The translations under genes were made by a program, and so were the position numbers. From Candidatus Peribacteria bacterium RIFOXYB1_FULL_54_35 (GTDB lineage: Bacteria > Patescibacteriota > Gracilibacteria > Peribacterales > Peribacteraceae), in contig MFYJ01000012.1 of the NCBI GenBank assembly GCA_001787755.1, forward strand, positions 1-64,000: 64,000 nt of DNA, given 5' to 3'. Positions 6,565 to 53,697 of the stretch are shown here, one piece after another; the stretch's first letter is position 1, and the number at the start of each line of letters is the position of its first letter. The notes beneath the pieces were generated by a model. The model was not told where the DNA came from, did no database searches, and was given only the letters and a program-made list of their open reading frames with translations.

Positions 6565-8460
6565 ATGGAAGGCTCTGTACACCCAAAGAGCATTGTCATC
6601 CTCGACTGCGGCGGACAGTACGCCCACCTCATCGGGAGCCGTATCCGGCGGTTGGGTGTTTTTACGGAAGTCCGTGATGCGGAGACTCCGGCAGCAGCGC
6701 TCAAAGGTGCAGCCGGCATCATCCTCTCCGGCGGGCCGCAGAGCGTCTACGACAGGGGGAGTCCGCAGGCGGACCCAAAAATCTTCACACTCGGCATTCC
6801 CGTGCTCGGCATCTGCTACGGTCTGCACTGGATGACGCAGGCGCTTGGAGGGGAGGTGAAGCAGGGCAAAGTGAAGGAATACGGGCAAACGAAATTAAAG
6901 ATTGAAAATAGAAAATTGAAAATTACGAAAGGCCTGCCTGAGGAAATTACAGTGTGGATGTCTCACGGAGATGAGGCAGTGAAGCTCCCTCAGGGATTTG
7001 AGCGGTTTGGCACATCTGATGCATGTGCGAATGCCGCTTTCTCAGATGAAAGACGCAATTTCTTCGCCATCCAGTTCCATCCCGAGGTCACGCACACGGA
7101 ACATGGGGTGGAGATTCTCAAGCGGTTTACTGCGCTCTGCAATGCGGCGCCATGGTCCGTGGAGAGCGCTGGTGCGGAGATCTCGGAGCAGATAAAAAAG
7201 GAGGTGGGGGACCGCAAGGTGTTCATGCTCGTCTCCGGCGGGGTGGATTCCTCAGTGGCTTTCACACTCCTTAACAAGGTACTCGGGACAGAGCGCGTAC
7301 AGGGGCTCCTCATCGATACCGGCCTCATGCGGAAGAACGAAGTGGTTCTCGTGAAGGAAGCATTCGATACGCTCGGCATAAAAAACTTGCGGGTGGAAGA
7401 TGCATCTGAGGAGTTCTTTGCCAAGCTCAAGAATGTGTACGATCCCGAGAAGAAGCGGCAGACCATAGGCCAGACTTTTCTGGATGTGCAGAAGCGCGTG
7501 AGTGAGGAGATGGGTCTCTCTGTGAAGGACGGCTGCCCTTCGGCAGGCTCAGGACAAACGTCGCGAAGCGACGTTTGGATGCTCGGGCAGGGCACCATCT
7601 ATCCCGATACCATCGAGACGGGAGCCACGAAGCACGCGGACAAAATCAAGACGCACCACAACCGTATAGAGGCGGTGCAGAAGATGATTGATGCCGGGCT
7701 CGTCATCGAACCGCTGAAAGATTTGTATAAGGATGAAGTCCGGAAGCTGGGCGAGGAGTTCGGGTTGCCCCATGAGTTCGTGTGGCGGCATCCCTTCCCG
7801 GGGCCGGGTCTCGGTGTGCGCATCCTCTGCGCATCTGCAGCCGATGATTTGCCGAGTCAGACAAAGATAGGATTGGAACGAAGGATTTCTAATTATTGTT
7901 CGTCTTTTAACCAGAACGGTCAGCCCATCATTACAAATCCGCAAGCGAAATTATTGCCAGTAAAGTCTGTTGGTGTGCAAGGTGATGGAAGGTCTTACAG
8001 GCATGCTTGTGCCCTTTTTGTGGAGGGTATTGTTGATTTTTATATTGGTCCCATCATCGCCGGAATCCCTAATATTCATAAAGAAGTGAATCGTGTGCTG
8101 CTCTGTACTTCACATTCCAGTGTTCCTTCGCTCATTTTCACGCCCGGATATCTTGACCGCACGCGTACAGATCTCCTCCGCGAAGCGGATGCCGTCGTGG
8201 ATGCAGAAATAAAGGCAGCCAATTTCTACCAGACAATCTGGCAGTTCCCGGTTGTCCTCCTCCCCTTCGGGACGGAGGAGGGCGGGCAGTCCATCGTTCT
8301 CCGTCCTGTCCGTTCCGTTGATGCTATGTCCGCGAGTGCAGTAGTGCTTCCATTAACAGTGCGTCAACGCATAACGGAGCGCATCATGCAGTTGCACGGA
8401 ATTGATCTCGTGTTTCTCGATCTCACCAATAAGCCGCCTGGCACGATCGAATGGGAGTAA
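6565..8460 (+). CDS. guaA: GMP synthase (glutamine-hydrolysing)
   Basis: GATase motifs GGQYAHLI, GICYGLH, QFHPEV; PPi-loop VSGGVDSSV; C-terminal PPGTIEWE; repeat-derived insert near 7531-7575. Confidence 0.95.
   Translation: MEGSVHPKSIVILDCGGQYAHLIGSRIRRLGVFTEVRDAETPAAALKGAAGIILSGGPQSVYDRGSPQADPKIFTLGIPVLGICYGLHWMTQALGGEVKQGKVKEYGQTKLKIENRKLKITKGLPEEITVWMSHGDEAVKLPQGFERFGTSDACANAAFSDERRNFFAIQFHPEVTHTEHGVEILKRFTALCNAAPWSVESAGAEISEQIKKEVGDRKVFMLVSGGVDSSVAFTLLNKVLGTERVQGLLIDTGLMRKNEVVLVKEAFDTLGIKNLRVEDASEEFFAKLKNVYDPEKKRQTIGQTFLDVQKRVSEEMGLSVKDGCPSAGSGQTSRSDVWMLGQGTIYPDTIETGATKHADKIKTHHNRIEAVQKMIDAGLVIEPLKDLYKDEVRKLGEEFGLPHEFVWRHPFPGPGLGVRILCASAADDLPSQTKIGLERRISNYCSSFNQNGQPIITNPQAKLLPVKSVGVQGDGRSYRHACALFVEGIVDFYIGPIIAGIPNIHKEVNRVLLCTSHSSVPSLIFTPGYLDRTRTDLLREADAVVDAEIKAANFYQTIWQFPVVLLPFGTEEGGQSIVLRPVRSVDAMSASAVVLPLTVRQRITERIMQLHGIDLVFLDLTNKPPGTIEWE
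7536..7575 (+). repeat. CCCTTCG...CTCAGGACA repeat with hairpin core, inside guaA
   Basis: cccttcggcaggctcaggaca followed by aacgtcgc-gaa-gcgacgtt (8-bp perfect stem). Confidence 0.85.
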
Positions 8461-12759: not shown

Positions 12760-12880
12760 AGCTTGTTAGCTTTATTAGCTTGTTAGGTTTATAGCTTCAT
12801 TAGAAAAAAATACCAAGGCACCAGGTTCAAAAATCCAAACCCCTAAAGAAGCTAATGAAGCTAATCGGCTAAGAAGCTAG
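12760..12880. repeat. Low-complexity hairpin (AGCTTCATTAG type) between convergent efp and gatB
   Basis: agcttgttagctttattagcttgttag... versus ctaaagaagctaatgaagctaatcggctaagaagctag. Confidence 0.85.
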
Positions 12881-14994: not shown

Positions 14995-15012
14995 TTAGTT
15001 GTGTTTGTTTTA

Positions 15013-15107
15013 TAGCTTGTTAGCTTCATTAGCTTCGTTAGGAAGGTACGAAGGAATCAAACCAAACATCTCTATCTCTAATGAAGCTAACGCAGCTAAT
15101 GAAGCTA
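15013..15107. repeat. Low-complexity hairpin (AGCTTCATTAG type)
   Basis: tagcttgttagcttcattagcttcgttag versus ctaatgaagctaacgcagctaatgaagcta. Confidence 0.85.
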
Positions 15108-15130
15108 AAAACTTGAGAAGCATGCAAGCT

Positions 15131-20095: not shown

Positions 20096-20299
20096 CCCTT
20101 CGACAGAGCTCAGGGCAGGCACAGGTGGAGCCAAAACCCTTCGACAAGCTCAGGACAGGCGCCGGCGCACCAAAGCCCCTCCTCCCGGCTCTGTGCCTCC
20201 TCATCGGCTCCTACAAGGATTCGGAGCCGACTCGTCGGCACGCTGCTCCGCAGCAGGGCCTTCCCCTTCACCCCCTCCTTCGTCAGGCTCAGGACAAGC
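20096..20299. repeat. Cluster of three CCCTTCG..CTCAGG(A/G)CA repeats with palindromes
   Basis: cccttcgacagagctcagggcaggc (20096), cccttcgacaagctcaggacaggc (20137), tccttcgtcaggctcaggacaagc (20276). Confidence 0.85.
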
Positions 20300-21266: not shown

Positions 21267-21326
21267 GAGAATAAGAGAGTAAGAGGAAAAAGGTATGTCC
21301 TCACTTCCTCTTACTCTCTTATTCTC
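21267..21326. repeat. 22-bp perfect inverted repeat hairpin between thyA and folA
   Basis: gagaataagagagtaagaggaa / ttcctcttactctcttattctc with 16-nt loop. Confidence 0.92.
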
Positions 21327-44525: not shown

Positions 44526-44733
44526 GAGTGGCAGCCCCACGGGGAACCCTTCGGCTCGTTCTCCGCCTGCGGCGGATTACTCGCTCAGGGCAAGAGGCAG
44601 ACAGGATAGTGATATGTTTAAAAAGAGTCTGGTACCGCCAGGGGGAACCCTTCGACTCGTCACGTCGTTCGCGGACGACGTGACTCGCTCAGGACAAGGG
44701 GCATACAGGATAGTGATGCGTTAACATCTGTTA
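44526..44733. repeat. Two tandem ~104-bp units: tRNA 3'-end-like block + CCCTTCG-core-CTCAGG + acaggatagtgat
   Basis: Unit 2 begins tggtaccgccaggggga, as in the tRNA-Glu 3' end; cores tccgcc-tgc-ggcgga and tcacgtcgt-tcgcgg-acgacgtga. Confidence 0.8.
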
Positions 44734-53259: not shown

Positions 53260-53697
53260 AAGGGTTAGGGTTTGGGTTAGGGTTAGGAATGTGCAAATTT
53301 CTGAATCAATCCGCTCAGGAGTCTCCCCGTTTCATCCGATAAATTTTTTGCACGGGATGTTTCCTTCTGCTGGAGCAGTCCAAGTTCTTCGCACACGAGG
53401 AGCAAGGCTTTTACTTCGGAGCATTCCCCCCTTGAGGTTGTATACTTGTGTGCTTTGTCCGCAGCTGTCGCCCGGCTGAACCCTTCTGCCAAGTTTGCGA
53501 GAATACTCACGACGGCACGCCGGATTTGTGCGGTGAGGCCGTACTGTTCTTCGGGAGGGAGTTTCCTTGTGAGGACATACGCCTCTTTCACGAGTTGCAT
53601 TCCCTTCTGCCACACATCGAGGTCAGTGAACGATTCCATAGGTCATTTTGGGTACTTAATTCTCAATTCCTAACCCTAACCCTATCCCCAACCCTAT
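53260..53697. mobile_element. Candidate element: telomere-like inverted repeats flanking a four-helix-bundle gene
   Basis: gggttagggttaggaat (53274-53290) is an exact inverted match to attcctaaccctaaccc (53666-53682). Confidence 0.6.
53283..53639 (-). CDS. Four-helix-bundle protein (S23/IVP, Avd-like family)
   Basis: FTDLDVWQKGMQLVKEAYVLTRKLPPEEQYGLTAQIRRAVVSILANLAEGFSRATAADKAHKYTTSRGECSEVKALL. Confidence 0.92.
   Translation of the reverse strand: MESFTDLDVWQKGMQLVKEAYVLTRKLPPEEQYGLTAQIRRAVVSILANLAEGFSRATAADKAHKYTTSRGECSEVKALLLVCEELGLLQQKETSRAKNLSDETGRLLSGLIQKFAHS

Follow-up and report, generated by a model that had tools for sequence, protein, structure and literature searches.

The window, which is the whole analysed stretch of 64,000 nucleotides from genome G000, carries the guaA gene (Table 1). 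The assignment of this reading frame to GuaA is secure, with a score of 516.9 bits for NF000848.1 in the profile search against a cut-off of 400. Between the residues VKDG on the left and WMLGQGTIYPD on the right, the gene contains an insert of 42 nt, TGCCCTTCGGCAGGCTCAGGACA followed by AACGTCGCGAAGCGACGTT, through which the reading frame is kept. The insert is composed of a single copy of a 21-nt repeat, CCTTCG-NCNN-GCTCAGG, and a hairpin with a GAA loop. In G001, a genome of the same genus, the site is empty, ...MQDG being joined directly to WMLGQ in the GuaA alignment, and the 42 nt are likewise missing from most of Peribacteraceae. The relatives of G000 with names are Candidatus Peribacter, Peribacteraceae and Peregrinibacteria assemblies, which places G000 in the Peribacteria branch of Patescibacteria, and the GuaA of G001 corresponds to the one in CG11_big_fil_rev_8_21_14_0_20_49_14.

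An earlier note on this DNA had proposed that a repeat lies in frame inside guaA and adds about 14 residues without a frameshift. Alignment with the GuaA of relatives confirmed both points, together with the coordinates and sequence of the repeat. The perfect hairpin of 8 bp described in the same note was corrected, as folding gave a stem of 10 bp. Judged from the alignment and from knowledge of GMP synthase, the insert would occupy a surface loop, and it is presumably translated within active GuaA.

Table 1. The guaA gene, its insert and further copies of the repeat in the window.
Feature	Position	Strand	Basis
guaA, GMP synthase (glutamine-hydrolysing), 631 aa	6565..8460	+	NCBIfam NF000848.1; Pfam GATase and GMP_synt_C
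42-nt in-frame insert, reading CPSAGSGQTSRSDV	7534..7575	+	alignment with relatives; gap against solved GMP synthases
dispersed repeat core CCTTCGGCAGGCTCAGGACA(A), here reading PSAGSGQ; CCTTCGGCAGGCTCAGGACA itself at 7537-7556	7537..7557	+	same 21-nt unit as the MetK insert
second hairpin, 10-bp stem with GAA loop, CAAACGTCGC-GAA-GCGACGTTTG	7555..7577	+	DNA fold; inner 19 nt in guaA only among 74 family genomes
degenerate repeat copy directly past the guaA stop, CCTTCGAC...CTCAGA, with a long GC hairpin (CCACGGCGGTCGCGACCGCCGTGG) in the loop	8467..8522	-	sequence
three more core copies (20097, 20138, 20277)	20097..20297	+	no recognised gene shown over them

The dispersed repeat and the second hairpin

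In genome G000 (1.56 Mb), 32 matches to the core were found with up to two mismatches, compared with 3 for a reversed-pattern control. Across 74 genomes of the family, 143 copies without any mismatch were counted against 0 for the controls, a copy number that is not due to chance. The consensus derived from 102 copies was YCCTTCGNCNNGCTCAGGRCA, and the repeat unit of approximately 21-24 nt consists of a stem YCCT/AGGR around TCGNCNNGCTC.

When the base preceding CCTTCG was compared with the one following CTCAGG in these 102 copies, they formed the pair C:G in 49 cases, T:A in 38 and G:C in 1, and the other 14 cases were the combinations C/A (9) and T/G (5); the association at the closing pair gave a Fisher p of 8e-14. 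This covariation supports a hairpin unit, and two sub-families could contribute to it. The core's own predicted stem is short, and weak when folded alone. The guaA copy of G000 is one of the nine C/A mismatches, and the guaA copy of another genome, G084, is closed by C and G.

Elsewhere in G000, the core has further in-frame readings, in ribosomal protein L4, where it belongs to the C-terminal tail, and beside a DUF218 domain. Most of the remaining copies have no recognised gene over them. At C13:69721, 73288 and 75034 and at C7:170300, the core is located at or just upstream of the starts of related cysteine-rich (zinc-ribbon-like) proteins. Positions 44529-44722 of the window hold a pair of diverged direct duplicates, separated by about 100 nt, that include CCCTTCG and CTCAGG-like segments.

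The second hairpin folded as DNA with z = -4.25, all shuffled sequences being worse. Its inner 19 nt, AACGTCGCNAAGCGACGTT, occurred with one mismatch allowed at two places in the 74 family genomes, namely in guaA of G000 and in guaA of G084, and no further genomic copies were found in this set. The second hairpin is no part of the general repeat. The idea that such a hairpin regularly accompanies the core was not upheld, with 10.5% of cases versus 6.5% in controls and no clear enrichment; an outer stem around the core was modestly enriched (7/95 vs. 13/950). The idea that a hairpin arm is a copy of the flank was dropped, because with the W codon as the right border both arms, apart from their outermost bases, fall within the 42-nt insert.

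No viral contig contained the composite of core and hairpin, and only 45 stretches had a 23-nt extension of the core; carriage by phage was rejected on these grounds. The literature search returned no relevant paper on the core or its peptides, which subscription papers or preprints might contain.

Occurrence of the repeat in other proteins

Host genes were determined in a sample of exact core matches, not a census, made up of 60 loci from other genomes of the family and 29 phylum-wide loci. In 13 family loci and 10 phylum loci, the core was covered by an enzyme recognised by NCBIfam. The former comprised a GT4 glycosyltransferase, malic enzyme, PheS, two beta-CASP nucleases, RF2, MetK, AlaS, TrpB (N-terminal), 6-phosphogluconolactonase, SerS, Mfd (C-terminal part) and RNase HII; at a fourteenth family locus (L233), the core was found at the edge of a weak GT4 match. 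The latter comprised UvrB (twice), a type-4 uracil-DNA glycosylase, PolX, IleS, a class I aldolase (twice), a Xer recombinase, IF-2 and trigger factor. The NCBIfam match supports the host gene in each case, the insert lying near an end in TrpB, Mfd and trigger factor. In IF-2 (L272:1303-2865, genome G216), four tandem 24-nt copies of the core, reading PSTSSGQA four times, stand right before ITFIDTPGHEA of the GTPase domain.

When compared with solved structures, the insert appeared as a clear gap in MetK, SerS, PheS, malic enzyme, a beta-CASP nuclease and RNase HII; in RF2, AlaS and 6-phosphogluconolactonase the gap was less sharp. For MetK, the filled site of G004 reads GATGAT-CCTTCGTCAGGCTCAGGACAG-GGGAAGCCC and the empty site of its congener G042 reads GATGAT-GGAAAACCC, so that the inserted unit is a clean 21 nt with neither duplication nor deletion. 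The MetK site was empty in 28 of 29 sequences.

The core is open in five of its six reading frames. The PSxxSGQ frame was nevertheless used in 12 of the 13 family cases and in 8 of the 10 phylum cases (20/23), and under five equal open frames the value of 12/13 corresponds to p = 4e-8.

The GuaA linker and its inserts

Linker length was measured as the number of residues that separate the conserved IG from the GQGTIYPD motif. Outside Peribacteraceae, it amounted to 21-23 residues in 56/56 sequences (one read by eye). Within Peribacteraceae, linkers normally had 23-24 residues, and 15 of 60 distinct GuaAs ranged from 26 to 68, with inserts of 2-44 aa, all in frame. By class, leaving out L056, L057 and L078, the repeat core accounted for 4 inserts, heptanucleotide tandem arrays for at least 7, and a second palindromic repeat for 2.

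The core was carried, in identical orientation and frame, by the GuaAs of G000, G084, G006 and G031, which fell on four separate branches of a tree built without the linker. Period-7 arrays were present in guaA of L048, L053, L064, L067 (14 = 2 x 7), L080 and L086 and in part of L097, with a weak one in L049; the heptanucleotide arrays are in frame and differ in sequence. Heptanucleotide short tandem repeats (STRR) are known from cyanobacteria and resemble these arrays at the GuaA site in other genera, not the core repeat. The second dispersed palindromic repeat, CTTCGCCNANGCTACNG, was found in guaA of L075 and L097, and at up to one mismatch each of these two genomes contained 17 copies, compared with 7 and 0 for controls.

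With in-frame inserts in a quarter of the family GuaAs, several repeat kinds among them, the linker is therefore a hotspot for repeat-derived insertions within Peribacteraceae. At the comparison sites, an insert was present in 1 of 29 MetK sequences, and longer linkers in 5 of 22 readable SerS sequences. The SerS linker, which bears the core in G030, holds other inserts in G004, G005 and G042 (L340, L326, L344), some of them PST...SGQ-like, and is a possible second hotspot.

For the earlier note, unrelated inserts at the same site in distant relatives would be a sign of a normal loop. Half of this applies: other genera do carry such inserts, and the many lengths observed within Peribacteraceae mark the loop as permissive, which would agree with ordinary length variation of a linker free to vary and only incidentally resembling the repeat. 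This explanation is nonetheless very improbable: linker length is constant outside the family, most of the inserts are themselves dispersed palindromes or heptanucleotide arrays at the DNA level, and the 21-nt unit is intact in many unrelated proteins.

The inserts of G000 (L038) and G084 (L069) agree at 40 of 42 nt, the second hairpin included. In the tree, the GuaA of G084 clusters with its own genus and that of G000 with other genera. On the simplest reading, the two inserts probably share a recent source through lateral transfer or local recombination. L069 was nearest to L038 only in the windows around the insert, and the bases immediately left of it differ. A recombination tract around the insert was considered and set aside; all relatives have conserved flanks there, and these therefore prove neither transfer nor recombination.

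Empty sites in relatives and the occurrence of the repeat in more than 20 other recognised proteins indicate that the repeat family does appear to move, as the earlier note held, and the integrity of guaA suggests that a copy can be tolerated in an essential enzyme. For the guaA insert itself, the near-identical copy on the distant branch of G084 points to lateral transfer and not to an insertion private to this genome.

G000 is a metagenome-assembled genome represented by one assembly only, and an assembly error or chimaera could in principle have created the insert. Such an artefact is hardly credible in view of the near-identical insert in the separate genome G084 and the matching core-insert GuaAs of G031 and G088, of which the latter matches the former across its last 380 residues; neither open frames nor a covarying pair would be expected from mis-assembly.

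Short hairpin elements in essential genes are bypassed in other organisms. By analogy, the insert could be removed by RNA excision or skipped by the ribosome, as in mitochondrial byp elements, leaving a protein without it. Bypassed elements are under no constraint to a length divisible by three, whereas all GuaA inserts are multiples of three, open and without stops, and the core has one dominant frame; removal needs neither property. Because length and openness are conserved, splicing or bypass is extremely unlikely.

An adaptive role was also considered, in which the PSxxSGQ loop or the hairpin would be selected for regulation, binding or mRNA structure beyond mere tolerance. The strong frame bias, the recurrent hits at the hotspot, the near identity of the insert between two genera, the stable hairpin and the covarying closing base pair are all compatible with it. 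However, the distribution is patchy with the nearest relatives empty at the site, unrelated repeats occupy the same GuaA position, and the frame bias is equally explained by selection against the four other open frames, which makes an adaptive insert improbable.

Taken as a whole, the insert is quite likely a copy of a small dispersed palindromic repeat together with a second hairpin, surviving in frame as such repeats do in permissive loops, of which GuaA provides a hotspot, and sharing a recent origin with the insert of another genus.

Known systems and mode of spread

Rickettsia palindromic elements (RPE; Ogata et al. 2000, 2002) measure about 150 bp according to a review (PMC10969869), and the size first reported for them was of the order of 100-150 bp. 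Like RPEs, the repeat described here is dispersed and palindromic and stands in frame in unrelated, often essential genes with a conserved peptide reading (PMC10969869), PSxxSGQ in 20 of 23 cases. It differs in its size, with 21 nt in MetK, 42 nt in guaA and a unit of 21-24 nt, and its sequence, host phylum and peptide are all unrelated. Some R. conorii repeats bear a CGTC end mark (PMC3733652), which the core lacks.

Intragenic REP elements, tagged by GTAG or CGTC, are palindromes of 20-40 bp that are mostly intergenic, with some in genes (PMC3733652). As with intragenic REPs, the in-gene copies include tRNA synthetases and repair genes (PMC3733652), and the core falls within the size of a hairpin-forming palindrome of 20-40 nt, as supported by the covarying closing pair (p = 8e-14). 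In contrast to REPs, the consensus of 102 copies has no GTAG or CGTC tetranucleotide at either end, no associated Y1/RAYT transposase was detected (PF01797 in G000; correlation over 74 genomes), and the core shows one dominant coding frame and a hotspot common to unrelated repeats.

MITEs in coding sequence have been described, for example, in Coxiella (PMC5896051; reviewed in PMC10969869). The core resembles them in being non-autonomous, and such elements can make in-frame fusions. Unlike insertion-sequence-derived MITEs, it is too short for terminal inverted repeats of an insertion sequence, and the clean 21-nt insertion in MetK (G004 vs. G042) shows no target site duplication. For twelve proteins, the Peribacteria genome paper mentions indels that are tens of bp long, and a word search of it returned no such repeat element (PMC4736985). 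The nearest known systems are RPEs and intragenic REPs, whose mode is the same; the repeat lacks their size, end-tag and transposase features.

The repeat would enter Patescibacteria genomes as a non-autonomous element, without target duplication and regardless of frame, after which purifying selection would act. Copies in genes would survive only where the insert is a multiple of three, open and placed in a permissive surface loop, and the retained frame, PSxxSGQ, would be the least harmful one, a short, flexible and hydrophilic linker. The GuaA loop before the WMLGQGTIYPD strand would be such a permissive site, struck repeatedly by the core and by other repeats, and the 42-nt insert probably arrived there by a lateral route.

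The absence of target duplication would suit single-strand (HUH-type) transposition, and a single-strand mechanism of insertion is conceivable for the repeat. No Y1 transposase (PF01797) was found in G000 or in the repeat-rich genomes G014 and G045, and across the 74 family genomes Y1 counts did not correlate with repeat counts (rho 0.17, p = 0.14). The Y1 transposase was accordingly rejected as the driver, and no mobility enzyme linked to the repeat was found in these three genomes or by correlation over the family.

A wider reading is put forward tentatively, with somewhat less than an even chance of being right. The repeat would represent a phylum-wide minimal selfish DNA, a hairpin of 21-24 nt whose favoured frame encodes the benign flexible linker PSxxSGQ, spread through the coding sequences of core enzymes of translation, repair and metabolism by a single-strand route that either needs no transposase or acts in trans, with copies crossing genera.

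Selfish DNA within protein-coding genes is best known from Rickettsia. Here, a smaller and sequence-unrelated version occurs across Patescibacteria, which are among the largest bacterial groups and have reduced genomes. Empty and filled sites in sister species provide natural experiments on insertion-tolerant loops of essential enzymes and raise the testable question of how a 21-nt element moves. They also serve as a warning that annotated core proteins of Patescibacteria genomes hold repeat-derived peptides.

Other repeats were observed in the window. Telomere-like TTAGGG/TTTGGG repeats form an inverted pair 375 nt apart (53261-53290 and 53666-53695), and a related stretch lies near the window start (137-174). 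At 21267-21326 there is an inverted repeat (GAGAATAAGAGAGTAAGAGGAA) with perfect arms of 22 bp and a loop of 16 nt, and clusters of AGCTAATGAAGCTAA-type repeats, direct and inverted, are located about 2.2 kb apart at 12766-12879 and 14995-15121.
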